From: Lantana camara
Lineage: Eukaryota > Streptophyta > Magnoliopsida > Lamiales > Verbenaceae
DNA length: 64,000 nucleotides
Direction: 5' to 3'
Assembly (NCBI GenBank): GCA_037501455.1
Contig: CM074856.1
Span: 89,912,001 to 89,976,000, forward strand
The notes below the pieces were generated by a model. The model ran no database searches. It saw only the letters and a program-made list of their open reading frames with translations, and was not told the origin of the DNA. Every line of letters starts with the position of its first letter. The stretch's first letter is position 1. Made by a program: the position numbers and the translations under genes. Positions 8,015 through 35,135 of the stretch are shown one piece after another.

Positions 8015-8431
8015 CTACTCGCCTACTTTAAAATGCATGATTTCAAGAATCAAGGAACGATAACTAGAGGTATCTTAAAGCTTTAAGGTGTCATGTATAG
8101 TAGGTCAGAGCTGATTCTAAAGTCTGATAGTTCAGAATATGTTTATATTCTAAATCAGCTACCCCTATATTTTACACCAGCATGGCACCATGTTATACTC
8201 CTCTTTATGTCAGTTACTTTGATCAATAATAATAGCACTGGTTCTTTATGTGCGTTAACATTTCTGCACACTTACAAAGTTTTAAATCTCTTTATCTTCC
8301 GCTGCACTATGTTGTAAGATTTACTATGTATTTCCTAGACCGTTCGTCATAGTATTTCTCTAGTGTTAGGTCTAACCTCCACTCGACGAGTATTGTGGTG
8401 CGGGGGTTATAGTGCCAGGGAAGGCGCTACA

Positions 8432-10493: not shown

Positions 10494-11224
10494 TGTAACA
10501 CCCGAGCGCAAGGTGTCACATCCCCCACACCGAGACCCGGCCCGAATATGAAATGGACGATCCATACCCGAGCCAAATCACGGCGAACGGGGACATACAC
10601 ACACTCTATGCTTGGCGGGACTAACCCTTGAACCATAAAATTAGAGTAATTACAAATACGGAAGCAATGACTATCCATTACATAAACAATGAGTAAACAA
10701 AATCCAAAAAAATTGATCCATATACATTATCAAATGCCGTCACGGCTCAATAAACAAGTACGCTCCAATAGCAACATTCATATACAATGATCACAAGTGC
10801 AAAATGCGAGTGGAAGACCAATAAACAAAAGGATTAGAAATGAAAACAAGACCTAAGACTCGAAATCCCGCCTAGCTCCCCTGACACCTGCACAAAACAA
10901 CTGAAAGCCAAACGGGTTCAGTCCAAAAGGGACTGGTGGGTATAAAAGCAGGGCATAGTGTAATATATGACTGTAATTAAACATTCACATGCAAGTTATA
11001 ATCCCAAATGAGGTTTTTAAAGAATTTCCCAAGTGGGTGAATAGAAATCATCAAAATGGATTATAGCAATTCATTAACATTAGGTCATTAATGGCCCGGC
11101 GAGTGGGCGTGCATTATCTCCAACCAACACCTCGTGTACTACATTAACATTCATTAACATTCATTCATTCTTTCTTTTCATGCATATCATTCTTTCGTGC
11201 GCATTCAATAACATATACACCTTC

Positions 11225-11430
11225 TTCCTCCGGGTTGGTGGCGGGTTTGCAAGGCCCATCCACCCATTCATTGACCAAAAGGGGAACATGACTCCCCAGA
11301 TGGCACTCAGCATCCATTCTTCGCTAACTCCTAACGAGGTCCGGTTACGTCGTTCATTGGTGGGACTAGTGTGAGGGTTTCCCGTCAGCCCATGCCTCCT
11401 CGGTTCCCCACTCACACCAAGCCCCTGGGC
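11225..11430 (-). other. P1-P4 structured RNA domain (Q copy 1)
   Basis: P4: GGTGG (11237-11241)/CCACC (11260-11264), with inner GGGT/GCCC around the TTGCAA loop. P3: GGGGA (11281-11285)/TCCCC (11293-11297) around ACATGAC. P2: near 11330-11338, CGCTAA before the CTCCTAACG side. P1: GTGTGAG (11369-11375)/CTCACAC (11411-11417) enclosing the conserved GGCTGACGGG segment on the minus strand. The same domain is at 18192-18397. Confidence 0.65.
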
Positions 11431-11525
11431 CCCATTCATTGTGAACATTCATTCATTCTCGCCAAAACATTAGGTAGGGTTCAAGAAACAAGGGCTTTAC
11501 GTTTGCAATCATTTACTCGATAAAA

Positions 11526-11885
11526 GACTCAATATATATATCATATTACTTTGGTTTAAAACCTTTCACATAGGGAGATGTATCGGGTCGTTTTATCTAA
11601 GTAGAAGAGAAACCCACCTTAAACCGCGAAAAGGAGCAAACACAAGCCTCACTGACCGGCCTCGTTTCCAACAGACTCAAAATCTGTGCAAGAGAGGTGA
11701 GGTGAGATTCAATATATATATCATATTACTTAGGCTTAAAACCTTTCACATAGGGAGATATATCGGGTCGTTTTATCTAAGTAGAAGAGAAACCCACCTT
11801 AAACCATGAAAAGAAGCAAACACAAGCCTCACTGACCGGCCTCGTTTCCAACGGACTCAAAATCTGTGCAAGAGAGGTGAGGTGA
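11526..11885. repeat. Tandem duplication, 2 x 180 bp
   Basis: Two units of 180 bp start at 11526 and 11706, each from GACTCAATAT or GATTCAATAT to GAGGTGAGGTGA, differing at a few positions. The same duplication is at 18493-18852 in the other LTR, so it predates this insertion. Confidence 0.9.
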
Positions 11886-12623
11886 GACTCAATATGACCA
11901 AATAAGACGCTCGGCAATGAAATGATTATGATACGAATGTATAAGAGATGCTATAAGGTAATGGACACGTTCATGTGCACTATTAAAGTCTTAAGGACAT
12001 ATAAACGTTCAATTCATTCATTCAATGAAGCATTCGTATTCAAACGAATTCATATCCTTCACATTTCACGTCAAAGGAATTTAAATTATATAATCAAGTC
12101 GTTCAATCTTTCATTCGAATTCATAATTTCAATCAAATTAATTCAAGAAATTCAAATATAATCCAAGTACAAGTTAAATCACATTTAAATTAGAATATAA
12201 ACAATTCAACATATTCAATTGCATTTACAATTAGAAATTAAACAATTAAATACATTCAATTAAATTTCGAAAATTAATTAGAACATGAAATAGGTAACAA
12301 TTAAATTCTAATAATTCAATTAAATCAAATAACATTTAATAAACATATATAAATATATAATTAAATATACATACATATACTATATGCATGCCATGCACGT
12401 ACAACTCATGCATGCAAAATCCTTAAATTGCATGCAAATGTAACCAATTTTAACATCGTGCATGCAATTACATTAAGGTCTAATAATTTCATGCATGGAA
12501 TATTTAGTTTTAACATGTGCATGCATAAAATTCACACTCATACGTACTGTAACAAACATGCAAGAAAGAAAAAGAAACCAGCAGTAGCAGTAGCTTCGCG
12601 GTACAGAACAAGCATGGAAATAC

Positions 12624-12750
12624 AAGGTGACACCCCCGTGTCACCTTCAAAGAACAAACCGAGACACCCCCGTGTCTCGGTACAGCAACAACAGGCCACC
12701 CTTGCAAACCCGTTACGAGCTGGAAAGAAGAAGATCGACACCCCCGTGTC
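12624..12750. repeat. GC-rich palindromic hairpin array (Q 3' LTR)
   Basis: Three hairpins share loop CCCC: AAGGTGACAC/GTGTCACCTT (12624-12647), CCGAGACAC/GTGTCTCGG (12659-12680) and GACAC/GTGTC (12737-12750). The outer pairs differ between hairpins but all remain perfectly complementary. A 140-codon frame across this region and an overlapping antisense frame are by-products of the palindromes. Confidence 0.85.
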
Positions 12751-14616
12751 AAGGACGCAGCAACAACAATTAAATCTCTCTTTCTTGGCGGAAAACAGAG
12801 CAACAACTCACGCAACAAATAGGCAAGATAGGCAGCATCAATTGGCATGAAATGCAACAACAAACCAGCCCTAACAAAGCATAAAACTGACAGCAAAAGC
12901 AAGGAGGAAATGCAGCAGTTTGACAGCAACTTTCAGGCCAAGAAAACAGGGCATAAATCGCGTAAAAACAGGGTACAACTGATCTCATTTATCCCCAACA
13001 TGTTCAGGTAAGATAAGCCATAAAAATTATAGTAAAACAACTCCAAATTAGCATACAAGTCAGCCCCAAGGAAGCTCAGACGTGAGAGGAAGATATGTGA
13101 GTTTATTTCATGAATTCCTCAAAGTATCCTTAATGACAACTCAGGAATAATTCAACTAACAAGTAATCAATGATCATAAATGAGAAGAGGATGTCAAAAC
13201 AATCATTCTCAAGCTTGGAATCAAACAAATCCATCAAGAATTGGATGAGATAGAAAGAAATGCCCAAAAACGTCTCTATACAAGAACAGCCGAAAAATGC
13301 ATGAAACCATGATCAAATTTGGGGATGAATGAATGAAAATGACCAGGAATGAACATATAATACAACCCTAAGCTTACCTTGTTGATTGGATGAAGATTGG
13401 ATGAGATTTGAGCTCCAAAATCTCCAAGGGACCAAGGGTTACGGGAAAGAACTGGAAGGCAGTGACTTTAGCTGAGATTTGTGAATTGTGAGAGGGTTGG
13501 TTTGGTTAGGGCTTGGTACAGCAGGTTAGGTGGTTGATTTAGGGTTCTATAGCATCAAACCATGGTTAATTTGGTCAACAAATGAATAAGTTATGGCCAT
13601 TTTAGTGCAACAAGGTCAGTTTCGTCGCCGTTTCGTTTTTCGGTTGAAATTCGGAGGTTCAATTGACGTTAGAAAAATATAAGGCTAAGTTTACTAAACT
13701 CGAATTTTTGTTACGAGTTCATCGAAGTTGACGGAACTCGAATCCGAGTTCCCGAGCTCAAGATATTAAATACGGAACCAAGGGTGCGCTAAATGCTCGT
13801 TAGCCCCCGACTTGGATTCCAAAATTCAAATTAAATCCGAAACACAAGCAAATGAATTCGAAAATACGAAACGAATAAATATTCATATACAAGACACGTA
13901 TAAGTTCAACATATTAAATTCGCACAAAATTCCGATATCAATTGAAATAGAAACGAAGCACGTAAATGTCACTCATGGACAAAGTAACAAATAAATTCAA
14001 AGTATTAACAACTAATGCAACATTTACATACTAATATAATATATTATAAATACATGCATGAAAATTTAATTTATAACTACACATGCATGCATACGTATAT
14101 ATATATATTATAACTACATGCATGCAATATATATAAGTTATAAATATAAAATGCATGCATAATTAATTTAAACTTGTAAAATTGCATGCAATAAAAATTG
14201 ATGCATACGTATATCATATATATAAATACATGCATGAAATATATATATAAGTTATAATCAATTATGCATGCATAATTAAATCCATGCACACGTACACATT
14301 AGTTTATATGTATATATATATTTATATTATATAAATGTAATTAATATTAATAACATTAAATTAAATAATTAACATTTAATACATATAAAATAAAATGAAA
14401 TATATAGAACACGTAAAAATAATTATTCGTGCAATTAAGGAGCACACAAGTTATTCACATAAATTCAAATTCAAATATTGCATATATTTCAATTAGTCAC
14501 TTATTTAACAATTAAACAATGAAATTTAATTATAGAAAACACTAAGACCAATTAATTTGCGCAATTAAGTAAACATATACGTCATGTTGTACTAATAAAA
14601 GAATTGGGGCGTTACA

Positions 14617-14676: not shown

Positions 14677-14955
14677 AAGGAACCCCGTTCCTCACAAACA
14701 ACAAGGAGAGAATCCCCGTCTCTCAAACAACAAGGAGAGAACCTCGTCTCTCGCAAGCAAAGAGAGCACCCCGTCTCTCGAACAAAAATAAGAGCATCCC
14801 CGTCTCTTACAAACAACGAGAGCACCCCGTCTCTCGAACAACAAGGAGAGAACCCCGTCTCTCGCAAGCAAAGAGAGCACCCCGTCTCTCGAACAAAAAT
14901 AAGAGCATCCCCTCTCTTACAAACAACGAGAGCACCCCGTCTCTCGAACAAAAAT
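14677..14955. repeat. Array of covarying hairpins in Q internal region
   Basis: About ten units of 20-36 bp, each a short palindrome around a C-rich loop: AGGAAC/GTTCCT (14678-14692), GAGAGA/TCTCTC (14706-14724 and 14735-14752), GAGAG/CTCTC (14762-14779), TAAGAG/CTCTTA (14789-14809), CGAGAG/CTCTCG (14817-14836), then a second round of similar units. Loops are mostly CACCCCGT or ATCCCCGT. Reading frames through the array are low-complexity by-products. Confidence 0.85.
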
Positions 14956-17439
14956 AAGAGCAAGGAAGTCTCCAATACTCCCAAGCCACGCACGTAAAAC
15001 CATAATTAAAATCATGTAAGACACCCCAAAGCAAGTAACAGACATCGTCCACGTTGGTTATCAATTGCTCCAATTAATTTAACATGATAAGATATCGAAG
15101 CACATAATATAAAAATTATTGGAATTAAGTTTGTATGGATGCATGTATCATGGATGCTGTAAGTACCGTTCACCGTAGTTGCGAAATTTAGAATTGTAAG
15201 TTGTCGTTGTCCAGTGCATGATCTGTCCTGAAGATAAACTTAGTGCTCAACTTGGCTTCAACCTCTTCAGGGTACCCCGGTGAAGCAATTGATGAATCCT
15301 TTAAGGATTATACTCTTGAATCCCTTCTGACTTGTACTGTTTCCAGTTTTCACCATTTCCCATAATCTTTGTTCGACCAACCAATTCTTTTTAATTGACC
15401 GAGCTTGACCTCCCCGAATACCCCTAAATCGTTTGTCCCGAACTCAGGTCTGTAGTTATTACCTTTACCATATCGAAGTCTAACATATCCCCGAATCTTC
15501 CTAATTGCACTTCCGTTATCTCTATTATTTATTTCTTCAGCCACAACTTCAAGTTTTAATTTTTGGTTCTAGGTTACGCTCTCCCCCTTAAATTTTCTAT
15601 CGTTATCCTTGAACTCCATCAATCCATCTTTCACCGAAATTCTTGATAAAACAATTTCATTTGGGGGAGGGAAGAATTTAACGAACATAGCAACCCCCTT
15701 CTCTATTCTTGTTCAATCCAACACCCCAAAGCCAACTCTAATTTCGCTTCTTTTTTTGAATCCCATTTCCATCAACCTGCCCCTTATTTGAGGTTCTTTA
15801 TTTTCTCCAACGTTACCTACCTATGCAACTCCATTATTTCCTTTCATCTGAATTCTGAGGTGGCTCGGTTAAAATGATACTTGATGGGTGAGATGAAGGA
15901 ACTCCCTATCAAATAAACACTAAAATGCATGTCGGGTTAAAATTGACGATGCATGTGTCACGTTTACATCAAGCAACTATGCATCACATTAGCGCAACGA
16001 AACCAAATAGAAATGCACGGATAATCATAAGGCCAAAAGAATAAATAATTAATGCGAAATATGATGCACGTGCTATGAATGCTTTGGAACCTGTCACCAA
16101 TGGGGTAAGTTGTTAGCTCGGTAGCTTTCTCTCGTTCCTCCAAACACGAGGTTACTTTGACTTGCTGATCATGCTTCGTCTTTCCCACGGTCTTCAAGAT
16201 TTCCAAGAATCCTGTGTATTACTTATATCTTCCACTGTCCGGAATTGAAATTTCACTATCCCTGATTCCTTCGACATCCACTGAGTTAGCCTCTGCATTT
16301 ACCCCCAAGGATCGCCCTTCAACCTTACTCATCTTCCTTACAAAATGAATCCCCAATATAATTCTGAACCCCACTTCTCGCCATCACCGTGATCAAGTCT
16401 CCCGCGCTTATCCTTTATGAGTTTAATTCACCTCCAATTGCTTATACTTGAGCGTAAGATTTTCTTGCAAAGAGTCTCTCCCCGAGAACAATCCTTCAAC
16501 CAGTCTTTGCTTTCCTTTATCGTTCCCATTTGTTGCTCCATATCTTCCAATTCAACTTCTCAATATGACAATTCATCTTGGATTTGGAAAAACGAACTCA
16601 AATCTCATTCTCCATATCGCCTCCTCCTATATATTTGTATTTTTCCAGGTACTTGCCTCTCTCTACTCCCTTCCAGACTCGTTTCCCATCTTAATCGAAA
16701 TCCAAAGCACTCCAATCCCACTCTTCCCATTCTTAACTTCGACAAACTTGATTTCAAATCACTGGACTTAGTCAGAAATCCTTCTTTGTCAATCCTTGGT
16801 GTACAACTCCTACCGAACCCATTTTATCTTAACTCCTTTTATTATTGATACTTCTTCAATGATCTAAATCCGGAATCAAAATACCTTCAAGGTTTGTTCA
16901 CTTCACTCATTAGGTTGAAAAATCCCGTTGCTTCCAATCAAAAGCACCTTGTATGGCAGAGCCGTATATGTCAATCTTCTAAGTCGTAACCATCTCATAA
17001 TCAATCCCTATTTCACCAAGTATCCTTCTACCACCGCATCTCTTAATTCAAACCTCCCATTCCGAATCGTAATCCTTGAACTCTAGCTCCCTCTAGAAAA
17101 CCTCACATCTCGAATTCTCTACATTCTTCCCGGTTGTATCCCTCCTAGCTTCCATGCCTCAGGAAGAACTAGCAATAGATCGTCTTTATCGTGGATCATA
17201 ACCTGTGAATCATAACCCATTTTCGGAGATATATACATGCGATTAATACATGCTTATGGCACTTATTCAACACGAAAGGCACAAATTCAATATAGAATGC
17301 AACAAGTAATTCGACAAGATTAAAAGAAAGACAATTTCATGTTCAAAATCGATGCAATGCACACATTATCACTTAGTTCCTATGCCGAACGACTTAGACA
17401 GACCTACACGACACGAGAGCCCGGGTTTTGCAACCCTAA
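14956..17439. other. Q internal region, no recognisable genes
   Basis: No frame on either strand shows gag, PR, RT, RNase H or integrase motifs. The longest frame here is 143 codons on the plus strand, antisense to the element. A segment near 15168 (TACCGTTCACCGTAGTTG) is shared with the K internal region near 52147. It may be a decayed or captured sequence. Confidence 0.6.
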
Positions 17440-17459: not shown

Positions 17460-20400
17460 TGTAACACCCGAGCGCAAGGTGTCACATCCCCCGCACCGAG
17501 ACCCGACCCGAATATGAAATGGACGATCCATACCCGAGCCAAATCACGGCGAACGGGGACATACACACACTCTATGCTAGGCGGGACTAACCCTTGAACC
17601 ATAAAATCAGAGTAATTACAAATACGGAAGCAATGACTATCCATTATATAAAAAATGAGTAAACAAAATCCAAAAAAAATGATCCATATACATTATCAAA
17701 TGCCGTCACGGCTCAATAAACAAGTACGCTCCAATAGCAACATTCATATACAATGATCACAAGTGCAAAATGCGAGTGTAAGACCAATAAACAAAAGGAC
17801 TAGAAACGAAAACATGACCTAAGACTCGAAATCCCGCCTAGCTCCCCTGACACCTGCACAAAACAACTGAAAGCCAAACGGGTTTAGTCCAAAAGGGACT
17901 GGTGGGTATAAAAGCAGGGGCATGGTATAATATATGACTGTAATTAAACATTCACATGCAAGTTATAATCCTAAATGAGGTTTTTAAAGAATTTCCCAAG
18001 TGGGTGAATAGAAATCATCAAAAGGGATTATAGCAATTCATTAACATTAGGTCATTAATGGCCCGGCGAGTGGGCGTGCATTATCTCCAACCAACACCTC
18101 GTGTACTACATTAACATTCATTAACATTCATTCATTCTTTCTTTTCATGCATATCATTCTTTCGTGCGCATTCAATAACATATACACTTTCTTCCTCCGG
18201 GTTGGTAGCGGGTTTGCAAGGCCCATCCACCCATTCATTGACCAAAAGGGGAACATGACTCCCCAGATGGCACTTAGCGTCCATTCCTCGCTAACTCCTA
18301 ACGAGGTCCGGTTACACCGTTCATTGGTGGGACTAGTGTGAGGGTTTCCCGTCAGCCCATGCCTCCTCGGTTCCCCACTCACACCAAGCCCCTAGGCCCC
18401 ATTCATTGTGAACATTCATTCATTCTCGCCAAAACATTAGGTAGGGTTCAAGAAACAAGGGCTTTACGTTTGCAATCATTTACTCGATAAAAGACTCAAT
18501 ATATATATCATATTACTTTGGCTTAAAACCTTTCACATAGGGAGATGTATCGGGTCGTTTTATCTAAGTAGAAGAGAAACCCACCTTAAACCGCGAAAAG
18601 GAGCAAACACAAGCCTCACTGACCGGCCTCGTTTCCAACGGACTCAAAATCTGTGCAAGAGAGGTGAGGTGAGACTCAATATATATATCATATTACTTTG
18701 GCTTAAAACCTTTCACATAGGGAGATATATCGGGTCGTTTTATCTAAGTAGAAGAGAAACCCACCTTAAACCGCGAAAAGAAGCAAACAGAAGCCTCACT
18801 GACCGGCCTCGTTTCCAACGGACTCAAAATCTGTGCAAGAGAGGTGAGGTGAGACTCAATATGACCAAATAAGACGCTCGGCAATGAAATGATTATGATA
18901 TGAATGTATAAGAGATGCTATAAGGTAATGGACACGTTCATGTGCACTATTAAAGTCTTAAGGACATATAAACGTTCAATTCATTCATTCAATGAAGCAT
19001 TCGTATTCAAACGAATTCATATCCTTCACATTTCACGTCAAAGGAATTTAAATTATATAATCAAGTCGTTCAATCTTTCATTCGAATTCATAATTTCAAT
19101 CAAATTAATTCAAGAAATTCAAATATAATCCAAGTACAAGTTAAATCACATTTAAATTAGAATATAAACAATTCAACATATTCAATTGCATTTACAATTA
19201 GAAATTAAACAATTAAATACATTCAATTAAATTTCGAAAATTAATTAGAACATGAAATAGGTAACAATTAAATTCTAATAATTCAATTAAATCAAATAAC
19301 ATTTAATAAACATATATAAATATATAATTAAATATACATACATATACTATATGCATGCCATGCACGTACAACTCATGCATGCAAAATCCTTAAATTGCAT
19401 GCAAATGTAACCAATTTTAACATCGTGCATGCAATTACATTAAGGTCTAATAATTTCATGCATGGAATATTTAGTTTTAACATGTGCATGCATAAAATTC
19501 ACACTCATACGTACTGTAACAAACATGCAAGAAAGAAAAAGAAACCAGCAGTAGCAGTAGCTTCGCGGTACAGAACAAGCATGGAAATACAAGGTGACAC
19601 CCCCGTGTCACCTTCAAAGAACAAACCGAGACACCCCCGTGTCTCGGTACAGCAACAACAGGCCACCCTTGCAAACCCGTTACGAGCTGGAAAGAAGAAG
19701 ATCGACACCCCCGTGTCAAGGACGCAGCAACAACAATTAAATCTCTGTTTCTTGGCGGAAAACAGAGCAACAACTCACGCAACAAATAGGCAAGATAGGC
19801 AGCATCAATTGGCATGAAATGTAACAACAAACCAGCCCTAACAAAGCATAAAACTGACAGCAAAAGCAAGGAGGAAATGCAGCAGTTTGACAGCAACTTT
19901 CAGGCCAAGAAAACAGGGCATAAATCGCGTAAAAACAGGGTACAACTGATCTCATTTATCCCCAACATGTTCAGGTAAGATAAGCCATAAAAATTATAGT
20001 AAAACAACTCCAAATTAGCATACAAGTCAGCCCCAAGGAAGCTCAGACGTGAGAGGAAGATATGTGAGTTTATTTCATGAATTCCTCAAAGTATCCTTAA
20101 TGACAACTCAGGAATAATTCAACTAACAAGTAATCAATGATCATAAATGAGAAAAGGATGTCAAAACAATCATTCTCAAGCTTGGAATCAAACAAATCCA
20201 TCAAGAATTGGATGAGATAGAAAGAAATGCCCAAAAACGTCTCTATACAAGAACAGCCGAAAAATGCATGAAACCATGATCAAATTTGGGGATGAATGAA
20301 TGAAAATGACCAGGAATGAACATATAATACAACCCTAAGCTTACCTTGTTGATTGGATGAAGATTGGATGAGATTTGAGCTCCAAAATCTCCAAGGGACC

Positions 20401-21583
20401 AAGGGTTACGGGAAAGAACTGGAAGGCAGTGACTTTAGCTGAGATTTGTGAATTGTGAGAGGGTTGGTTTGGTTAGGGCTTGGTACAGCAGGTTAGGTGG
20501 TTGATTTAGGGTTCTATAGCATCAAACCATGGTTAATTTGGTCAACAAATGAATAAGTTATGGCCATTTTAGTGCAACAAGGTCAGTTTCGTCGCCGTTT
20601 CGTTTTTCGGTTGAAATTCGGAGGTTCAATTAACGTTAGAAAAATATAAGGCTAAGTTTACTAAACTCTAATTTTCGTTACGAGTTCAGCGAAGTTGACG
20701 GAACTCGAATCCGAGTTCCCGAGCTCAAGATATTAAATACGGAACCAAGGGTGCGCTAAATGCTCGTTAGCCCCCGACTTGGATTCCAAAATTCAAATTA
20801 AATCCGAAACACAAGCAAATGAATTCGAAAATACGAAACGAATAAATATTCATATACAAGACACGTATAAGTTCAACATATTAAATTCGCACAAAATTCC
20901 GATATCAATTGAAATAGAAACGAAGCACGTAAATGTCACTCATGGACAAAGTAACAAATAAATTCAAAATATTAACAACTAATGCAACATTTACATACTA
21001 ATATAATATATTATAAATACATGCATGAAATTTTAATTTATAACTACACATGCATGCATACGTATATATATATATTATAACTACATGCATGCAATATATA
21101 TAAGTTAAAAATATAAAATGCATGCATAATTAATTTAAACTTGTAAAATTGCATGCAATACAAATTCATGCATACGTATATCATATATATAAATACATGC
21201 ATGAAATATATATATAAGTTATAATCAATTATGCATGCATAATTAAATCCATGCACACGTACACATTAGTTTATATGTATATATATATTTATATTATATA
21301 AATGTAATTAATATTAATAACATTAAATTAAATAATTAACATTTAATACATATAAAATAAAATGAAATATATAGAACACGTAAAAATAATTGTTCGCGCA
21401 ATTAAGGAGCACACAAGTTATTCACATAAATTCAAATTCAAATATTGCATATATTTCAATTAGTCACTTATTTAACAATTAAACAATGAAATTTAATTAT
21501 AGAAAACACTAAGACCAATTAATTTGCGCAATTAAGTAAACATATACGTCATGTTGTACTAATAAAAGAATTGGGGTGTTACA
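17460..21583 (-). mobile_element. Q 5' LTR
   Basis: 4124 bp, same structure as the 3' LTR: P1-P4 domain 18192-18397, 180-bp tandem duplication 18493-18852, hairpin array 19591-19717 and GATT-loop hairpin 20700-20719. The plus-strand right end GGTGTTACA at 21583 is followed by target duplication TGCTT. Confidence 0.9.
19591..19717. repeat. GC-rich palindromic hairpin array (Q 5' LTR)
   Basis: Same three hairpins as 12624-12750: AAGGTGACAC/GTGTCACCTT (19591-19614), CCGAGACAC/GTGTCTCGG (19626-19647), GACAC/GTGTC (19704-19717), all with loop CCCC. Confidence 0.85.
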
Positions 21584-21976: not shown

Positions 21977-22844
21977 TGTAACGCCCCGGTTTTCACTTAT
22001 AATTTTCATAACATTATATGTATTATATCTTCATGTATTTATATGAATTTTCATTACCGTGAAATTTATGTAAATTAATTGCTAACGTTTCTAATTACTA
22101 TTATGTGGCCTTACTTGATCATTTCATAAATATGTGGACTTAATTGCATAACATGATTCGGAGTTAGATGATTAATTGCCATGGAATGAAACTTGCTTGC
22201 ATGAATTCAATTATTTCAAGGACTTAGTTGCAAAATGTGATGATTCATCTTAGTTAGTGGAAGATATAATATATCATAGGTATATCTCTCTCCCACATTT
22301 CATTCCATACATTTTCATCATATATACACACACTCACACCCACATATATCGATCCAAACACACCAAGAAGGGAAGGAAGTATTCATCTCTTTTTCAAGCA
22401 AGATTCTTGGAGGATTTATGAAGTTAGAAGCATCATCTTCATCATCTCATCATTTCATCCATTTCTTCTTCCATCTTGAGGTATATGGAGAATTTGATTG
22501 AATCCCTTGAGATATATTTGAGTAGGGTTTGATAAGTATGATATGATTCCTTGGGTTATAAGTGCTTAGAAGCATGTTTAGGATCATTATATCTCATAAC
22601 TTGCATGAATTCTTGAATAAGAGGAAAGTTGGTTAACATGATATTTTAGGGGTTTTGAATGATGAATTCTTCATGATTGATGCATGTTTCATGGTTTATA
22701 TGCTACCTAATTGATGTCTTTAAGTTATATACATGTTATATGATTATTTTAGAGCATTTTGGTTGAGTTTACTTTGGGTTTTCATTCCTTTTCTTTCTTC
22801 CCCGAAGCTACCCCTGTTTTGCCCCTTTTTCCAGCACTGGAACA

Positions 22845-22966
22845 GTACCCGGGTGGGTACTTTTTGTGCATAAAAAGTACCCGGGCGGGTACTTTTTCCC
22901 TGTAAAGCTTCAGGACTGCTTTACCCGGTCGGGGAACTTTTCCCTTGAATTTTACCCGGCTGGGTA
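22845..22966. repeat. GC-rich palindromic hairpin array (D)
   Basis: GTACCC/GGGTAC with loop GGGT (22845-22860); AAAAAGTACCC/GGGTACTTTTT with loop GGGC (22872-22897, perfect 11-bp arms); an imperfect unit around GGTC (22921-22936); TACCC/GGGTA with loop GGCT (22953-22966). All share the core TACCC/GGGTA. Confidence 0.85.
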
Positions 22967-23920
22967 CTCCCTCATCCGAACTCCAAATAACCTGATTTTT
23001 GAACCGTTGGAAAGATTTTGAAGTCTAGAACAACCTCGATTGGAATTATCTCAATATCTTTTCCCATTTGTGAGATATTATCAATTCTTTTTGGTGTCGA
23101 TGCTTTACCGACAAACTGCATTCACCCAACTTCAAGCCTACGCCATTTTCTCCTCGCTTTGAACTAGAAAACGAGCCATATATCATCGGAAAGGCCTTTA
23201 TGTCTAGTTTCATACCCAACAATCAAAACTCAATTCCAACTTCTATATCTCAAGATATTCTAGTTTTCCTACAACGTGTGCGTTTTCGGAAATTGCCCTT
23301 TTTTGTCATACTTCACCAAAACCTTCCTTATTGCATTCCTTTCACTCTCTTGGCTCCAATATGTGAATTATATGATATATATACTTGATTAATTGATAAT
23401 TATGCTCCTACTTGACACTTCTTGGTACTTAATTGCTCAAACGTTATTGGTTGACTTCATGCCTTATATGAATTGAACTTGAAATAATTGAATGATATGA
23501 ATACATGATTTCTTGTTATTAATTTCACCTCTTAGGTGTTATTTGGTGTTTATACATGCTTAGTGTTAATTGATTGCTTGGTTTTATTTAAATTACATGA
23601 ACATTGTCGTGCGTCATACTTGGTCTCATATTGAGTCATGTCTCACGAGTTCCTACTATTCCCTTTCTTATCCAGTTTTCCTCCAGGGCGGAGATCATGG
23701 ATCGTGTGGGCATTGTCTTGTAGCCTTATCTTGTCCCGTCACTCGTCAGGTGAGGTTTAAATTCTAGCTACTTAGAACCCTTACAACCCTACGTGTGTTT
23801 TCGGCCAAAAGTATACGTATATTTATAGTTTTCAAATCTTATTGATTTACAACGGATTTCATGAATTGAACGGATTGATTGATTGATTGATTAAATGTTT
23901 TGGCGAGTAACTATTGTTCA

Positions 23921-24120
23921 CGTTGGGCCCCGAGGGTAGTGTATTGAGCCAACCGGGGAAGCAAAGGCTGACGGGTAACTCTTGCACTACCCTCACCATT
24001 GTGGGATCACCTCTGAATCCACCAGGAGGTTTGGTGGAGGAAGAAATCCCGTACGTGGGAGTCATGTTCCCGACGTACACCATGATTGGATGGTTGGGTC
24101 TTGCAAGCCCGCCATCACCC
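23921..24120 (+). other. P1-P4 structured RNA domain (D, clearest copy)
   Basis: P1: GAGGGTAGTG (23932-23941)/CACTACCCTC (23985-23994), perfect 10 bp, enclosing AACCGGGGAAGCAAAGGCTG. P2: TCCACCA (24018-24024), loop GGAGGTT, TGGTGGA (24032-24038). P3: GTACG (24051-24055)/CGTAC (24074-24078) with inner GGGA/TCCC around GTCATGT. P4: GATGG (24089-24093)/CCATC (24112-24116) with inner GGG/CCC around TCTTGCAAG. Loops are shared with other families while stems differ by compensatory changes. Function unknown; it lies inside the predicted leader intron. Confidence 0.75.
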
Positions 24121-24413
24121 GGAGGAAGAAGGATGTATTGATTGAAATTGCTAATTGTGCACGGAATTGTTTTTGTGATCACCTAACTCACTAATGAGTT
24201 GAATGATTGTACACTTTTGGTGAAAGGTTGGAGATTTGCCCTCACTCACCGGGCCACGTATTGAAGTGATCGTGATTGAATTATTAAATTGATTAGTTGT
24301 AATCTCGGGCGAGTCCTACTTTTCTATTGAACTTATATTGCCTTCTTTTTAAAAATCTTACCCGAGATTATAGCTTGCATGGTAATTGCGCATATATTTA
24401 TATACCCCTCGCT

Positions 24414-24471
24414 CAGTCCGTGTTGGACTGACCCCTCAACTTTTCAGTTTTACAGGATCGAGCTAGGCGGG
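24414..24471 (+). promoter_or_regulatory. Hairpin, polypyrimidine tract, candidate 3' splice site
   Basis: CAGTCC (24414-24419), loop GTGTT, GGACTG (24425-24430), then a pyrimidine-rich stretch and TTTTACAG/G near 24455, then GCTAGGCGGG (24462-24471). The same order occurs in Q, F, Y, K, L and T. Confidence 0.55.
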
Positions 24472-25589
24472 AATTAGAGTCTAGCTTGTCTTTTTTTCGG
24501 GTCTAGCACTTCACCTCATATTTTGGTTCAGGTATTGATACTTCTTATATTTTGTATTATGCCTTATTCATGTTGGATACGATATTGTATTGATATGTAA
24601 ATGTTGGTATCTATTAGTGTGACACCCCGAACGGAGGGCCCCACATCCCCCGAACCGAGACCCCGGTCCACACATGAAATGGAAGTCCATACATGAACCA
24701 AGCTCACGGTGAACGGAGACAGAATAAAAAAAACAACTTGTTAGGCGGGACTAGACCCTGTACCAATCAATTCAACAAAACCAAGAATGCGGAAGCAATG
24801 TAATCATGCAATCACAATCCAATAAAAATTTCAATTCATACCAGAATGTAAATACGGATTCAACTAGTTCAAGATCATGTCCTAACCTGTCCCGAATCAA
24901 TACAATGCAATAACATATAAACGGGTTCAACTAGGGCCCTAGAAACCTGTCCCGAGTTCAATAAAGTAATAACTATACAGAGTGGCTTATATAGCCCAGT
25001 TACAAGCAGGAAATAAAGGTACGGTACGATGCAATGCAAACAAGACCAAGACTCAATCAAAGACTTCAAAAGACTCCCGCCTAACGACCACAGAGCCTGC
25101 AAGACAGACACTAAAAACAACGAGAGGGAGGGGTCTGCCAACTGACTGAGTGAAGGGTGTACACACGCATATACATATATAATCAGGAAATCAGGCAGGC
25201 ATAATTCCACTATACGTTTTAGGATTAAATAAACAGGAGAGAGGAATCAAGATTAAATCAATACGTACGGGTGGAATTATGTCAGGGCATGCAAGTCACA
25301 TAAACGAGATATAATATGCATGTGTCGATATCCGTACGCCTTTGTTGATGCCCACTTTACCTATACGATCCACGAGCTCCGGTGCTGAACAGGGACTGAG
25401 ACATACCAGAGGTTACGGATATCTATGCTTAACATTTTAGGGGACCCAGCGAGAACGGGTAATTAATCCATCCTGGACTCCTCTTTTCACTCATTAAATG
25501 ACAGGTACAAGCAGGTAATCAGGAAACAAGAGTTATAATTAATTATCAGGCGGGAAAAACAAGTACAAATTAATCTCCTTTCTTCGGGT

Positions 25590-25795
25590 ACAATGTGGCC
25601 GGTAGCTAACCTCCACATCCGCGCATCAGGGTGATCTTCGGGTTGATGACTCCCTCAGATCGGAGCCCCATCTCCCACCAAACCTCCTGGTGGGTATCAG
25701 GGTAGTCCAACAGGATGGGACCTGTGCAAGAGTTCACCGTCGGCCCGATGCATCCCCGGTTCCCTCAATACACAAGCCCCTGGGCCCCAGGAACA
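25590..25795 (-). other. P1-P4 structured RNA domain (E)
   Basis: P2 is clear: CCCACCA (25674-25680), loop AACCTCC (GGAGGTT in element sense), TGGTGGG (25688-25694). P1 pairs a GGGGCTTGTGTA-like arm with a TGCACAGGTCCC-like arm using G.T pairs. The enclosed GGGCCGACGGTGA is conserved. P3 and P4 are weaker than in D. Confidence 0.6.
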
Positions 25796-25802: not shown

Positions 25803-28685
25803 CGTAACGTCCCAAATCTTTTTTTTTAAACCAAACCAAAACGAGTAAGTTGATTAAGATATTGGGACATGTTTAAAATTTCGATCGAATAACTTATGTG
25901 TTAAATATTATTCTATACCTAAAATAAATTTGAATAAGGTGTGATTTAATTAATTAACTCAATATCTACTTCGGCATGGTGGAATTATGTAATAGGTGAT
26001 TGGTTGATTTAAAACTATTTAATTGACTATATTATACGTGAAAAAAAATAAATAAATATAATACTTAATCTTAATTTCTCGTCTCCTATTGTGATCGAAA
26101 CTTGTAATGTCTTATTAGGATTCAAATGATTAAGAATTGTTATTTTAATGATTAAGTTGGGTGTTGTGATACAAGTATATTGTTGTACTTATATATATAT
26201 TAGTATATCACTCCTCCGTGTAAGAAACTTAATTGCAAACGAATAATTTTCCTCCTTTGATGAGTCAGGCTCAAAAGTTGCTTATTCAATTTCATTAGAT
26301 GACAAGTGGTACGTTTCCCCTCTATCTTTACATATTTTTTTATTTGATTACTACTTTAGTAACTTAGCATTCTGTCGAAAACTATGAACAGCCTTACATT
26401 AATTGTGCTAAAGAGTCCTTCCCAAATCTAATTTCTACCATTTCGTTTGCCCAAAATTTTCGTATTTCTATATACCAACTCTGGTAAGTACTTTAATCTA
26501 TTTAATTATTTAAAATTCTTATTTAGATCTTGTTATTTTTATTTTAAAGCTCTAACTTTGAATATTTTCTGATTTGAATTGGCCTTTACAATTATAATTA
26601 AGATCTGCTAATAAAACATTAATATTATTGGTTTAATTTTAGAAGTTATTTGCCTGAATATACTATGCCCGGTTTTGGCTCAGACCATGAAACGAGGTCA
26701 TACTTAATGTATATATATGAAAAGAAATAATAATAATTATAAGATTATAAGACTGATATCAAATTAATTAAATTTGAATAGTTGTCATTAATGCCTTTAG
26801 TATGTTTGTTCAGAAAAATAAATTTGCTTCGTTATTATATTATATGCATGTATACATGTATGAATATAATAACAATATATAAATGGTGTTTTGTCTTAAT
26901 CCTTTTCATTAATTTTTTTTCCATGTGCATAAATTTTCATTAAAATAAGTATTATGCATTAATTACTGAATTGAATGCAGACGGTTGCCATGAATTCTCG
27001 GGAATTCTAGTAGTTAATGGTTCATATAAATATTTCCCTTTTTATATTTAGACATATAAGTGATTTGTTGGGAAAGCAAACCAAATGTGATAAATATTAT
27101 TAAACCTCTATTACGTTATTTGTATGCATATATTTAAAATACTTGTGTTTTGTTTCCTTTTGTGTAAATTGGTTAATCCGACTCATGCTGTTATAAACTT
27201 TGAACTGCAGTAGGAACCATAATAGAAATGTTCTCACAATCTATCAATTTATATGGTATTATAAGTATGTGTTAATACTGGAAACTCTGAATAACTTTTA
27301 TTCCTGAAAACATGATCCAATTTTTGAAAGTATTACATGAATTATTTTATTATTTAAACTTTATTTTGTGCTCAATTAAATTGTTTACATGCCTAATTCC
27401 TAGTGTGGTCTAGTAATAGCCGTACGAGTCAGTCGTGCTATAATTTAAGGTCATGTGTATGTTACAGGTGTTCCTAAGGGGGAGCCCTGATCGTGTTGAT
27501 CGTGTTGTTCTTTTGCAACCCTGTGGAGAGTTCAAGGTGAGGGATTTAAAATGTTTTCAACTGGGGTCAAAACATATATTATGTAAATATATATATCTTC
27601 TTAAAACTCAACTCTTATTTATTGAGTTTGATTTTCGACTCGTTGATACTATATATATAAATAGTTGTTTTATAATATTTTGGTATTTTGTTGAAAAATT
27701 GGATTTCCTTATAAAAATGGGTTCTTGTTATATTATATATACGTGTGAGTGAACGAAAAGTTTGATCTTGAACCGTGAAACTGTTAAGAGAAAGAAAGTG
27801 TTTGAAAGTGTGAAAATATTTTGAAAAGCGAGTAATGATCTAATAGAACCCTTGGGGACGCCCTTGGGGAATATGGGCCCGAAGTATCTAGTGGGTGAAG
27901 CCCGGAGGTGTGCGCCAAAGGCTGATCTTTACTACGTACTTCTGTGAAGCTCTGTACGGGGCGTAGCCGGAGGTTGGCTACGACACGTATAGAGTGAGGT
28001 TATTGGTACCAGGGCATATTGCCCCTATCTGTGTGATCGTGTAGTTGGTTGAGGGGCACCTCGACTAACAATTGGAGGGAGAAGGCTGGTTTATGTCTTG
28101 TGTTTCTTGTGTTCAGTGTGTAAAAGGTTGGAGAACTTACCCGTACTCGCCGGGTTACTGTGATTGATCGATCGTTTTGATTATTGGTTCACAAGTGTGT
28201 TTTCATACAACTAAAAGCTATCCCTTCTTATACATTTACACATTAGTTTTGAAAATAAGGAAAATGTGAACCAAGCTTGTGATCTTGTTTAAGTATATGT
28301 ATAACCCCCTCACTTAGTCCTTTTGACTAACGTCCCTTCTCTTCTGGTTTTGGCTTCAGGCAGACGTGAAAAACGGCAAGTTTGGACTAGGTCACCAGGT
28401 GCCGTATAGATAGTTTGTTTTGAAGTCCACTGTTTTGGAATTTCTCCTCCGTGGGAAAGTCAGTATGTATAGTTTATGTACCTATACCTAATACCGTTGT
28501 CGTTCGTCGTCGGCCTTGTCGGCCTTGTAAATGACTTTTGTGTTTGAGTGGTGTTGTTTTTTTTTATGTTTGCGCTATGCTTGTGATTGTTCGTTCATCT
28601 CCGTTCGCTGGGAAAGATCTCGAGTGAAGGCCCAAAGCTAACACTCGGGGTATTTCTCGGTGCGGGATGTGGCTAGGGCGCCACA
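25803..28685 (+). mobile_element. L: solo LTR (2883 bp)
   Basis: Starts CGTAACGTCCC (T of the usual TG replaced by C), ends GGGCGCCACA; TSD TACAA (25798-25802 and 28686-28690). No PBS, PPT or coding region. It contains AGGTGAGG, then the P1-P4 domain, a TTAGTC/GACTAA hairpin (28314-28330) and a candidate 3' splice site GGCTTCAG/G near 28360. Confidence 0.85.
27865..28090 (+). other. P1-P4 structured RNA domain (L)
   Basis: P2: CGTAGCC (27962-27968), loop GGAGGTT, GGCTACG (27976-27982), perfect 7 bp with the conserved loop but a new stem. P4-like: GTTGGTTGAGG/CCTCGACTAAC (28044-28069, two G.T pairs). The AAAGGCTGA segment of the P1 interior is present. It confirms P2 in a distant family. Confidence 0.6.
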
Positions 28686-30928: not shown

Positions 30929-31649
30929 GTGTATGCCTAATTTTAGGTTATAAATTGTTTAATTCTTAAAATTTTGAATAGTAAATGTTTTCAATAGTAA
31001 TTTTGACTTTTTCATCAACATTTATTAGTATAATTTCGAAATTAATGTAAAAATAATTATAAATTGAGTTTTGAAAATATTAAAGAAGGATTTTATCCGA
31101 ATTTTCCAAAAAAATCGGCAATTTCATAAACGTTTTCTAAAATGTGACCTACATTTTCAAGTTAAACCCTAATTTTCATTTCAAATACTTATAATTAGGA
31201 TCATAATGTGATTAATAAATATTTGATTAGTTAGAGAATTCATAAAACCTAATTCATTAAAGAAATTCCCTTAAACGGGTAAAATTAGGGTTTACGTAAT
31301 ATTCTCTAACGTGTTATACTCTATGTGCTTACTTGAATAGAACAATCAGATCTAATGTGTTACACTTTTAAGTATGAATATTATGTACCTTATGTGCTTA
31401 TTTGATTAGAATAATTAGAACTTATTCCTAAGGCTATAGTAGTTAATACTTTCAGGCAAAATTAAGACCGAGGAATGGAATCCACATGACTCTATCTGAC
31501 TACCGGTATTAGGTGAGGGTTAAATGTTTTCAACTGGAATCATGCTTATACATATATATATCTATATAAAATTATTTTCAAACCTACCTATTATTTATGG
31601 TTTACTACCCGATATATATAATACTATACTACAATATGGGCACCGGAAT
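30929..31649 (+). mobile_element. P-element LTR3, part c
   Basis: Matches LTR2 from about 6677 to 7394. Cut by T with TSD GGAAT (31645-31649 and 42774-42778). The uninterrupted target CACCGGAATCAACG is visible in LTR2 at 7386-7399. Confidence 0.9.
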
Positions 31650-31969
31650 TGTAACACCCCTATATTTATTCTCATATATACTTCTAATAAATTTACTATA
31701 TAATAATAATTAATATTTTAAATGAGTTATAGTATCAACTAAGGATTAATATCTCTTATGGTAATTAAGTTTTGATGGACTCAAAACCATCAACCTTCTA
31801 ATCCATTGTCTTGAAACAACGATTTAGTTGATGGTTTTCTCAAATCCATTGTCTTGAAACAACGGTCTAATTGATGGTTTTCTCAAAACCATTAGCTAAA
31901 AACCAAGGATTGTTGTTGGGTTTTCTCTAAACAATGGGCTAGAGATTGCATGTGATTGGTTGAAAATTT

Positions 31970-31980
31970 CCATAAATAGG
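31970..31980 (+). promoter_or_regulatory. TATA box of T LTR promoter
   Basis: CCATAAATAGG is the only TATA-like motif placed before a plausible leader; the start site would fall near 32000. The copy in the 3' LTR is at 40349-40359. A short upstream ATG (32026) lies in the leader. Confidence 0.6.
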
Positions 31981-32451
31981 TTGGGAATTCAAGAAATTTT
32001 CTTCATCTCCAAAACTTGCGTAAACATGGCTTCTAAGATTTCTGTACTTACACATATAGTTATACGTATATATTAGCTTTCATAGACCTCTTCTTCAATC
32101 AAGCCAATCTTGCTCATTCCTTAGCCAAATCCTATAAACTCATATATCATTTTCATCGTTTCGACGAGACGATCGCGATAGAGTAGACGATTTCTAGTTT
32201 CGGCGAATCGAGAGTAAACTTTGAAGGCCCGTAAAGCTGCTGCGCACTCCAATACTCTTCCCGGCTAATTTTCTGGCAAATTTCGACTGAGCTTTAGACG
32301 GTTGGGACGGTCTTGGAAAAGCGAGGCTAGTAGTGTCTCTGTGTTGGTCAGAAAACAACTCCGGCGAAGCTGCGAAGACGGCAAACTAACGGCGACTCAA
32401 GGTGGAAGTGGTTCTTGGTGAAATTTTAGATCAAAAACTTTAGCAACTAAG

Positions 32452-34112
32452 GTATGTTTCAACCTAGATAGCATGTTTATGCAATTAGTTCTAAGAAATA
32501 TGGAATAAATCAGATTTAATATTTAGATTTAAGCGACTGTAGGATTTTAGAATTTATGATTTCAGCCTAGTCTGTTTATTACCGTAACCTTATTTGCTGG
32601 GATTACTAATCCATGGGTATTATAGGTTGTTAATATGACTTGGATATTGGCTAATATTTGAATTATGAATCGCTAATATTAATGATATGAAAATTATAAA
32701 TATTGAACTAATCCAATTTAATTTTAGGTTTAAGAAAATCTTGAATTTTAAATTACGTTGTAAAAATTAAAGTTTCATTGTTGGATTTCTTGAGAAATTG
32801 ATCGGAAATTAGTAAGTAAATTGAACACCATATATACACACACGTAACTTGCAAATATCTGTACAGTGGATTCATAAGAGATAATGTTGTATTATTATAA
32901 TTATTAACACAATTCTAAAAATGGATATTAGTAAAACTAAAGACAAGATTTTGTAAATCCATTGGAAGTATCACAATGTCGTAGGACTTATCAATCCACA
33001 ATATTAATGGTTTATAATTAATGATATGGAAATTGTTAATAATAGATGATAATAAAACTGTGCTGAGTAATAACCAACCATTGAGGTCATTTTATTAATA
33101 ATGATTTAGGTTGTTAGAGAAATAAATCTATTGAAAAGGTTTAAACTTGTTAATAAATAAATACTATTATATATATGCACGTAACTCAATTAGTTAATAA
33201 ATTATTTTTGATCTAATCTCTGCACCCATGACGCACAGTAGGTAATTATGTTGTAATAAAATAGTTGTTATTATTTAAACAATTATGAACAGTATAGCTA
33301 TTGATTGTTTTAAAACCAAAGCTTGCACAAGAAGTAAGGGTTGAGAATTTTATTAGTTACATTAATTAAAATAGTAATTTATTTGTAGCATATTAACTTA
33401 GCAGCAACAACGGAAATTGGTTAGTAAATATTTTTGAGAAATGGTAGTACGTAAGCAATTAATAATCTTGGTATGATTATAAATTAATAGGTGACAGTGC
33501 AAGGATCCGAATAACTCTTAAAGGATTAAGAAGCAAGTAAGAATTTCAGGTGAGGTTTCTTGAACCTTCTCATTTGTGAGCTTTACCATACCCTTCTTTG
33601 TTGGAGAACAAATTCTGTTTCATCTTCGATATAATTTCTCATAATTAAATTGATCATGAACCCTTATTGCTTGATTGAGCTATCCTTGCTTATTGTTGTT
33701 CACCAACCTTCAAACTTGAATTACCATTTGAATGATTAGATATTCTTGATTGTTCTGTTACCCATCTGAAGGAGAATTATTGTACTGTTCTGGCGGCTAT
33801 AGGGGATCCTATGGTACGTATTGTTCCCTGGGGGTTCCCTTGGAACGACTATGCGGGGGCTCCCGCTAGTCACATTGATTGAGTGTCCGTGTTTGGCCAA
33901 TACGGAAAGAGGCGATAAAAGGATGGACCCGATCTTGATATGAAATATTCTGTCTTCTTAAACCTCACTCATTACTGAACCTTGAAATTAATTACCACCT
34001 GGTTTTTATATCTTGAATTACTTCAACTTCTATTGTTATTTGATTTCATGCTCACCTCACTGGGTCATTTTGACTCACCCCTCTTTTTTTTTTTTTTTTC
34101 TTTACTTTCCAG
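32452..34112 (+). other. Predicted leader intron within T 5' LTR
   Basis: Donor CTAAG/GTATGT at 32451/32452. Acceptor after a 16-T tract, TTTACTTTCCAG at 34112. Removing it would shorten a roughly 2.5-kb untranslated leader that is otherwise full of upstream ATGs. Unspliced RNA would still be needed as genomic template. No transcript evidence. Confidence 0.45.
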
Positions 34113-34397
34113 ATATTACAGGTAAATAAATTTTGAAGAAGTAATCATTTTGGGGAAGGAATCGGTATCGACTAAGAAGAAATTATAATTATATTGCAAT
34201 ATAATTACGTTTCGTCTATGTTTTGATTAAGTCCTTATTTAAGTAGAGATATTATGTTCTAGTGGATCACTTATGTAATGTTTTAAACTTGGTTATTTAT
34301 GTAAATTACCTTTTGTTTCTTCTTCTCTGATACTTGCTCGACTCAAGTAACAAACCGGGTTCCGAATCAGTGCATTCGGGGTCGGGGTGTTACAGGG

Positions 34398-34409: not shown

Positions 34410-34520
34410 TTAGGTTGAACGCCTAAGCTACGCTAGGACGGGGTCCTAGGGATATGGGGAAATTGATTTAGCTTATATTAGTATTAACTTTAAGTTCTTT
34501 TGAATTTTTTTTTTGATAGG

Positions 34521-35135
34521 ATGTCGAGGGACAAGGGTAAAGCAGCTATAGTTATATCTAGCTCGGACTCAGAAGAAGAGATAGGAACCTTGCAGGGGAT
34601 AATACACGATCTTGAGATAGAGATTCAGGATTTAAACAATGAACTTGCTGCGAAAGATAAAGAAATTTGTGATCTGAGAGCTTTAGTGCAAAATTATGAG
34701 ATTACCATTAATGCTAGTAACCAGAAGGAGTTGTGGGAACATCAGGAACGCACTCAGCGTTGGGGTAGGCTCACTGAGATGCAACAACATATAGATAGGA
34801 GAAGGGATTACATAACTCGTCAGTCACAGGACTTCGTAGCCCGCTCAGAGGAGTTCACCCAAATGATAAAAGATTTTAACACAATCATCACTTCAGATAT
34901 GGGTTATCTTAGGGCCAGTTATCCTTACTGTGAGACAGGAATCTACCAGGGGTGGGGTAATGCTGCAGGACCTTCTAGTGTACCAGGGCCAGTTGGAGGG
35001 AACGCTACAGAACCTATAGGACCGAACCCACTTTATGATCAGGGAGTTAATATGGGTAATGTTGGGGATGGTAACGATGGCGATGATGAAGATGGAGAAG
35101 AACCCTCAGAAGACGTAGATGCATATATCGACTAA
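34521..35135 (+). CDS. Accessory ORF1 protein upstream of gag
   Basis: 204 aa from the ATG at 34521; the frame stays open 7 codons upstream but only from a TTG. Residues 9-20 (AIVISSSDSEEE) match the pattern of a SUMO-interacting motif: hydrophobic core, serines, acidic run. Residues about 22-60 are a predicted coiled coil (regular L/I spacing), about 66-125 are charged and helical, 145-175 are Gly/Pro-rich, and 183-204 are strongly acidic. It lacks Gag, zinc-knuckle or enzyme motifs. It lies between PBS and Gag-Pol, in a different frame and 278 nt upstream. Extra ORFs are known from Ogre/Tat elements; one here is less usual. Role unknown; a scaffold or host-protein interaction role is inference. 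Confidence 0.8.
   Translation: MSRDKGKAAIVISSSDSEEEIGTLQGIIHDLEIEIQDLNNELAAKDKEICDLRALVQNYEITINASNQKELWEHQERTQRWGRLTEMQQHIDRRRDYITRQSQDFVARSEEFTQMIKDFNTIITSDMGYLRASYPYCETGIYQGWGNAAGPSSVPGPVGGNATEPIGPNPLYDQGVNMGNVGDGNDGDDEDGEEPSEDVDAYID

Follow-up and report, generated by a model that had tools for sequence, protein, structure and literature searches.

The retroviral packaging signal psi is composed of several hairpins in the genomic leader, located downstream of the major splice donor and between the primer site and gag, and spliced RNA lacks it. In HIV-1, SL3 has a GGAG loop. Among plant LTR elements, Cassandra and the retrozymes contain 5S RNA and hammerhead sequences inside their LTRs, LARDs are large non-autonomous elements, and BARE belongs to the Ty1/copia type. 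How plant LTR elements separate packaged from translated RNA is poorly known.

According to the sections of PMC3735527 used here, BARE1 and BARE2 of barley are LTR elements in which translated and packaged RNAs form separate pools; BARE2, which parasitises BARE1, is said to retain conserved signals for dimerization and packaging. The BARE intron is 104 nt long, lies in the coding region and ends gag translation; a structured LTR intron is not mentioned in those sections. A 2025 review states, in the parts available, that plant LTR elements are generally without introns, the exceptions being Ogre and EVADE, which are intron-bearing and alternatively spliced (PMC12786077). Their introns are tied to subgenomic RNAs, whereas the putative intron described below is untranslated and lies inside the LTR. 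The words "packaging signal" do not occur in the main text of that review. For sunflower elements, the available part of PMC7730604 describes splicing in other clades and no Tekay in the expressed set. A survey of LTRs was unable to build models for plant Metaviridae, which vary too widely in length (PMC3601003), and a word search of the available text of a plant structured-RNA survey (PMC12218528) gave no occurrence of transpos, LTR, gypsy or retro. No description of the present domain or of a structured plant LTR intron was found among open-access titles and the starts of abstracts.

The domain considered here is, like psi, a conserved multi-hairpin RNA downstream of a donor motif, and the GGAG loop of its second hairpin can be likened to that of SL3. 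In contrast to psi, it is placed in a putative intron within the LTR (in family Q about 0.7 kb upstream of the LTR end, which the primer site follows), it has no Rfam match, and its recognition by Gag is proposed only. With Cassandra and the retrozymes it shares the presence of structured RNA in non-autonomous plant LTR elements, but it has a different fold and an intronic position; an LTR RNA of their kind was rejected, as the Rfam searches gave no hammerhead or 5S match. Q resembles a LARD in combining 4.1-kb LTRs with a 2.8-kb inside without long ORFs, whereas the feature described here is an RNA domain of the LTR and not the non-coding inside. That no named motif matches, as stated in the initial annotation, agrees with Rfam 15, which gave no family at the gathering score in the 64 kb, only two matches at E up to 0.5 in the window, both of a single miRNA model to an AT repeat, and two chance-level matches in a permissive search at the domain. 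A group II intron was likewise rejected, given no Rfam group II match in the window and an acceptor motif ending in CAG. The domain is rated as an LTR-element leader signal in a new place and with a new fold.

The window, which is the whole 64-kb stretch of DNA analysed, is plant DNA made of nested LTR retrotransposons, as seen from self-comparison and reading. The domain is located in the sense strand of long LTRs from a group of plant Ty3/gypsy-type elements. Families Q and Z have LTR pairs, D, E, L, Y, Y2 and V are single LTRs or pieces, and families W and X are also present. After the 5′ LTR of Q stands TGGTATCAGAGC, presumably a primer-binding site of the initiator-tRNA type, and its position defines the minus strand as the sense strand. 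As no ORF of at least 200 aa is found inside Q, this element looks non-autonomous. Z is the only window element whose gag-pol ORF is intact (1525 aa; matches to gag, protease, RT, RNase H, integrase and chromodomain); its RT region is 79% identical to a Coffea eugenioides protein among 120 relatives listed, and the element presumably belongs to the Tekay lineage. Judged by its LTRs, Z is young. Between its primer-binding site and gag it has an extra 213-aa ORF, for which the coiled-coil Pfam family TACC_C scores 26.0 bits, under the cut-off of 29.9. Family X has the look of a tandem LTR-inside-LTR array; its inside measures about 0.8 kb, and the array is broken up by insertions of Q, D and Z. 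The non-coding insides of Q and W contain repeated hairpin-like units.

Table 1. Positions of the domain copies, their parts and surrounding features in the window
Feature	Position	Strand	Remarks
Domain, D copy	23925-24132	+	cmsearch, 194.6 bits (D is part of the model); used for pair counts
Domain, E copy	25578-25787	-	cmsearch
Domain, L copy	27875-28085	+	23.5 bits, E 6.6e-5; absent from first model
Domain, Q copy, LTR at 10494-14616	11220-11432	-	cmsearch
Domain, Q copy, 5′ LTR 17460-21583	18187-18399	-	cmsearch; sense is minus strand
Domain, Y copy	58988-59207	-	cmsearch
Domain, Y2 copy	63007-63223	+	cmsearch
Partial domain-like match, LTR family X	7491-7624	+	weak: 13.2 bits, E 7e-4, filters off, 761 bases
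P0 closing stem (D)	23925-24120	+	GGG 23925-23927 with CCC 24118-24120
P1 (D)	23932-23994	+	GAGGGTAGTG 23932-23941 with CACTACCCTC 23985-23994
Word of the conserved core enclosed by P1 (D)	23966-23974		GGCTGACGG
P2 (D)	24018-24038	+	TCCACCA 24018-24024, loop GGAGGTT 24025-24031, TGGTGGA 24032-24038
P3 (D)	24051-24078	+	GTACGT 24051-24056 and GGG 24057-24059 with CCC 24069-24071 and ACGTAC 24073-24078
P4 (D)	24089-24116	+	GATGG/CCATC and GGGT/GCCC around CTTGCAA
Purine-rich tail after P0 (D)	24121-24132	+	GGAGGAAGAAGG; recognisable in most of 29 rows
Putative internal leader exon	23687-23749	+	between CTCCAG and AG/GTGAGG motifs
Putative last leader intron with domain	23750-24455	+	GTGAGG donor to TTACAG acceptor motifs
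P5 hairpin	24239-24254	+	GCCC-TCACTCACC-GGGC
P6 long-range stem	24295-24375	+	AGTTGTAATCTCGGGCGAG / CTTACCCGAGATTATAGCT, then TGCATG
P7 hairpin	24414-24432	+	CAGTCC-GTGTT-GGACTG; 3′ arm contains branch-point-like CTGAC
Q LTR pair	10494-14616 / 17460-21583		98.8% alike
Z LTR pair	31648-34396 / 40027-42775		99.7% alike
Extra ORF of Z	34494-35135	+	213 aa
Family X array	3581-10493, 42771-47968
Hairpin-like units, Q and W	14680-14962, 51602-51751		GAGAGACGGGG..CTCTC
Tandem units, family V	55920-56232	-	three units of about 104 bases
Second conserved block	1826-2061, 13726-13961, 20693-20928, 60636-60870		near the LTR start
Palindrome window	56724-56923	-
Palindrome window	60061-60300	-
Palindrome window	61821-62140	+
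Palindrome window	22818-23017	+
Palindrome window	19504-19703	-

The domain of about 210 nt consists of four hairpins (P1-P4) and a short closing stem (P0), and the search of the window with a covariance model (cmsearch) locates seven copies. The two Q copies belong to the two LTRs of one element, and Y and Y2 are about 86% alike. The first model was constructed from six copies (Y2, Y, Q twice, D and E); it recovers these six and the unseen copy of family L, with no other match up to E 10 in the window. The stem sequence of L has little in common with the other copies, its P2 reading CGTAGCC-GGAGGTT-GGCTACG and its P4 forming eleven pairs as counted by eye. Every stem quoted in the initial annotation was found in the window sequence, and the D copy is present where it was placed, with ends other than the proposed 23921 and 24120. 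The partial match in family X occupies the equivalent spot of the putative intron and is unreported up to E 10 in the whole-window search. In families V, Z and W the domain is unrecognised by the covariance model, the best match in Z reaching E 0.4 in 571 bases. At the position of the domain in other families, V has tandem units, each a hairpin followed by GGAAGAA or a near form; the model does not recognise them, and they are perhaps a derived form of the domain.

The core of the domain is strongly conserved, and the stems vary to different degrees. Among 50 copies, both sides change in 15 of the 16 pairs of outer P1 and in all eight model pairs of P2, the outermost of which is unpaired in 29 of 49. 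The outer stem of P4 is paired in 95.3% of cells, with two-sided change in 5/5 pairs, and its inner stem in 83.0%, with such change in 3/4. In P3 the outer stem, with 78.6% of its cells paired, is the weakest helix, and the inner stem reaches 84.2%. P0 is paired in 96.3% of cells with zero two-sided changes, and thus has no covariation support. The loops, initially described as constant, are so in most copies and deviate in Q, E, Y and L: the P2 loop of Q is GGAGT, E and Y have GGCCGACGG, L retains only GGCTGA, and the P4 loop TTGCAA is missing in E and L.

The surroundings of the domain have the order of motifs of a spliceosomal intron, that is donor, branch point and acceptor, although not all three occur in every copy. 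In the window, AG/GTGAG or AG/GTGGG is found at most 450 bases upstream of six of the seven copies, a hairpin with CTGAC, CTAAC or a near variant on its 3′ arm in six, and an acceptor motif beyond that hairpin also in six. E is the sole copy without donor, hairpin and acceptor, and its donor sits past an inserted L element; the L copy has P5, P7, donor and acceptor. P5 is present in all seven copies. Copies sampled elsewhere in the genome, which include several from one family and are not independent, were compared with 2000 control places. The donor motif (GTGAG/GTGGG) occurs 164-386 bases upstream in 19 of 20 (control 3.8%), being absent at L149. P5, formed around CTCGCC or a close variant of it, is present in 16 of 19 (2.9%), its stems including GCCC/GGGC, GCTC/GAGC, ACCC/GGGT and ACCCC/GGGGT. 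The P7 branch-point hairpin is found in 12 of 18 (3.2%) and the acceptor motif in 11 of 18 (0.4%), so that six and seven copies, respectively, stay unmatched and count against the explanation favoured below. The long-range stem P6 was scanned in 17 regions with recognised P7 (12 of 13 sampled and 5 of 6 window regions; the twins L159 397-612 and Q 11220-11432 and the copies without P7 were left out). It exceeds the shuffled controls in 12 of them (p<0.05) and has p≥0.05 in five, including Q 18187 and L; it stands mostly immediately 5′ of TGCATG, with a sequence varying by family.

Families V, W and Z all have donor and acceptor motifs despite the lack of a recognised domain. In D, V, W, X, Y2, Z and L an acceptor-like site is seen by eye about 45-90 bases upstream of the donor, which suggests a small internal exon. 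The leader-intron position proposed in the initial annotation is borne out by the enrichment of donor, branch-point-hairpin and acceptor motifs around the sampled copies, and, as read from sequence, the domain-bearing stretch is very probably the last intron of a long spliced leader. A copy of the spliced junction of D has no genomic match with at most one mismatch. This search gave 30 matches, all with two mismatches, of which 26 read TTTCAG in place of CGTCAG, like an ordinary acceptor. L184, one of the 26, was rejected as a spliced junction on inspection, being an ordinary acceptor, and L183, among the remaining four, as an ordinary acceptor of another family. A second cross-family block, AACGAGC...GAGCTCGGGAA...CGGATTCGA, lies near the LTR start and is about 80% alike over 237 bases.

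The spread of the domain was followed in 25 stretches of 10 kb taken at round coordinates of the same 1.27-Gb genome, which are not random draws. With a second covariance model, which includes L, 13 of the 25 stretches yielded 20 copies (E up to 0.1). Rough extrapolation from 20 matches in 250 kb, with a wide error, gives of the order of 100,000 copies genome-wide. The weakest match (L145 999-1138, 19.8 bits) is without P5 and P7. Occurrence can be dense, as in L158 1-10000, where three copies of 171, 112 and 103 bits lie within 10 kb. Twenty additional copies were obtained through the core pattern. The 22-base core CCGRGRANGCANNGGCYGACGG has 30,916 exact matches genome-wide and its reversed pattern none. 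The closing pair of the core hairpin is G-C in 7,227 of them, G-U in 3,149, A-C in 185 and, by subtraction, A-U in 20,355. Independence of the two sides predicts about 4,900 A-C against the 185 counted; since the copies are related, these counts are descriptive and not a probability. Among the first 100 places, core matches are by eye often spaced 6.0-7.7 kb apart on the same strand, which fits many Q-like elements with short insides. In L141, a divergent domain (47.6 bits) is followed by an LTR end, the primer-site-like word GGTATCAGAG and, downstream, gag-like and RT-like stretches 44% and 80% identical to Z. The domain is apparently carried by at least one element with coding sequence. L156 was rejected as a coding element with a 3′-LTR domain, as its LTR appears inserted in a pol remnant.

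Outside plants, one core pattern has no matches in viral contigs, and a shorter one occurs in 9 viral contigs and at least 120 prokaryote stretches. Running the first model over 89 such loci (9 viral and 80 prokaryote) gave 75 matches with E no higher than 10, mostly confined to model positions of about 30-55, which are the pattern itself. The best two outside matches were L017 with 26.0 bits (positions 10-69) and L004 with 22.3 bits. Because the loci had been selected by the core pattern, these matches were taken as chance; no plant copies were found among the 89 viral and prokaryote loci. A score of about 25 bits is thus insufficient by itself, since prokaryote DNA selected by the core reaches 26.0 bits, on a level with L and with the lowest-scoring sampled matches. 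The L copy was not selected by the core and is without the exact core; it and other weak matches were accepted because of the surrounding motifs.

Pairing and two-sided change were compared with shuffles, slid structures and a tree-based null, in which the substitutions of each branch are reassigned among stem columns. Six copies aligned by plain MAFFT have 88.4% paired cells (shuffles 83.0 ± 1.0%, slides no more than 51%), and two-sided change is seen at 15 of 50 pairs (shuffles 7.5 ± 1.9, slides no more than 4). A hand-blocked alignment of seven copies, built with the structure known, gives 95% paired cells against 58% under the tree-based null and two-sided change in 27 of 49 pairs against 4.7 ± 1.9, a value not reached in 2000 replicates. 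With 50 aligned sequences the figures are 90.4% (shuffles 78.8 ± 0.4, slides at most 47%) and 41 of 50 pairs (shuffles 22.1 ± 2.2, slides at most 20). Alignments fitted to a structure or model are biased towards it, and two sets were compared: a fitted set of 47 sequences (the 50 rows less three more than 97% alike) and a structure-blind MAFFT set of 39 rows, from which the eight most divergent or truncated rows, including L, were dropped. The fitted set has 90.1% paired cells against 50.1 ± 3.9% under the tree-based null and 111 independent two-sided events against 33.5 ± 5.3 (0/200). The structure-blind set has 85.6% against 63.1 ± 3.0 and 45 events against 18.4 ± 3.5 (0/200); the number of its pairs with two-sided change, 24 against 16.7 ± 3.0, is a weaker signal (1/200).

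Pair-level tests were run with an R-scape-like custom script and not with R-scape. The G statistic is significant for 7 of 47 pairs in the fitted and 3 of 44 in the structure-blind alignment, and all-against-all for one pair per alignment, both within the structure. A paired/unpaired statistic gives 3/47 and 0/44, with no all-pairs match. An earlier pair test on 20 sequences (29 rows minus nine more than 96% alike) had given 8/49 in the fitted and 1/47 in the structure-blind alignment, with no all-pairs match. The whole structure is clearly covarying and single pairs mostly are not; of the R-scape-type check named in the initial annotation, the part on the structure as a whole came out in its favour, while single pairs passed modestly. 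In MFE scans of 200-nt windows over 11 LTR stretches, the domain has z-scores of -2.4 in D and -2.5 to -3.8 in L, and the domain windows of E, Q, Y and Y2 fall outside the seven best. Given its composition, the fold has no exceptional stability, and stability was rejected as evidence for the domain. Windows with short, family-specific palindromes of the putative first leader intron, several repeats per LTR family (GGGAACGGCCGTTCCC in V, CACGGGNGTGTC types in Y and Q), beat shuffles at z -3.3 to -7.8 and mostly fold better than the domain.

These data bear directly on the reading that no selection on RNA took place and that pairing is a by-product of descent, alignment or DNA palindromes. It could draw on the 98-100% identity of 40 scored D copies, on the preference of model-fitted alignments for the model structure and on the modest pair-level tests. 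However, the tree-based null is rejected in the fitted and in the structure-blind alignment, the structure slid by one column shows no signal, and L differs from the other copies at most stem positions with pairing maintained. The absence of RNA selection is accordingly scarcely credible, being rejected at the level of the whole structure, and the selected RNA fold suggested in the initial annotation is almost certainly real, supported by copies outside the model and by the tree-based null. A compact fold with a strongly conserved core could also belong to a self-cleaving or catalytic RNA, or to a small RNA transcribed on its own; for an inserted hammerhead or 5S RNA one would expect a match in Rfam, where nothing reaches the gathering score and nothing at E 0.5 is credible, and such an identity is most improbable. 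A translation element, such as an internal entry site or a shunt, would suit a long unspliced leader rich in ATGs (in seven families the putative last intron has between 7 and 37, with bounds approximate by a few bases). Yet the putative splicing would take the domain out, and the LTR end is several hundred bases further downstream, so this role is very unlikely.

Nuclear export of unspliced RNA would give the domain a role like that of the mouse IAP and MusD transport elements or the comparable simian retroviral CTE, as intron-bearing genomic RNA must exit the nucleus; the Rfam searches gave no match to such elements, and export as the main role is improbable. A further possibility, unlikely though deserving more weight, is splicing control, in which the folded intron, chiefly P7 and P6, delays or modulates excision of the last leader intron and leaves some RNA unspliced. 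In this reading P1-P4 would bind SR-type or other splicing factors through its GGA-rich loops and purine tail. The location of the domain between donor and acceptor motifs, the placement of P6 and P7 between domain and acceptor, and the recognisable purine-rich tail all agree with splicing control, as does the occurrence of P7 in V and Z, and of P6 in V (p 0.02) and, less clearly, Z (p 0.07), two families without a recognised domain. On the other hand, it leaves unexplained that V, W and Z combine splice-site motifs with the lack of a recognised domain, and familiar examples of plant intron-retention hairpins are simpler than the P1-P4 domain. Splicing control and export share much of their evidence with the preferred reading, a cis-acting label of unspliced genomic RNA, and could act alongside it.

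Such a label, as the main function of the domain, falls just short of an even chance, and the combination of fold, intron and genomic-RNA label, as the best explanation of the whole, is evenly poised. Most likely, the label could serve packaging, export or retention, and its carriers are a non-coding family together with one or more coding elements. We infer that the LTRs are transcribed and that the last leader intron is spliced from some transcripts and retained in genomic RNA. Only the unspliced RNA could template a new LTR with the intron, and since new LTR copies keep the putative intron, the reverse-transcribed RNA would be the unspliced one. Because the domain lies inside the intron, it would be present only in that RNA and would label it exactly. 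Exposed loops, for instance the GGAG loop of P2, would be bound by the element's Gag, or by a host factor for export or retention, directing the labelled unspliced RNA into particles, with spliced RNA going to translation, much as with retroviral psi. P7 pairs the branch-point region and may leave splicing incomplete. A cis role is argued by the presence of the domain in non-coding Q, which has LTRs and a primer site, and upstream of the coding-like part of L141. Intact Z without a recognisable domain, and V and W likewise, count against a label. A packaging-type signal is favoured by the intron-label argument, by the constant location of the domain, by the retention of its loops and by its occurrence in a non-coding element.

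More broadly, and tentatively, a large share of the long-LTR elements in this plant genome may carry a new RNA class, a structured LTR-leader intron, in which the splicing state sets the fate of the RNA, and non-autonomous families retain the fold and the priming sites and use borrowed proteins. If this is true, spliced RNA would be translated, unspliced folded RNA would be packaged, and non-autonomous families would amplify on borrowed proteins. The domain offers a way to detect and sort long LTRs that evolve fast, and its fixed place makes the choice between packaged and translated RNA in plant LTR elements testable.
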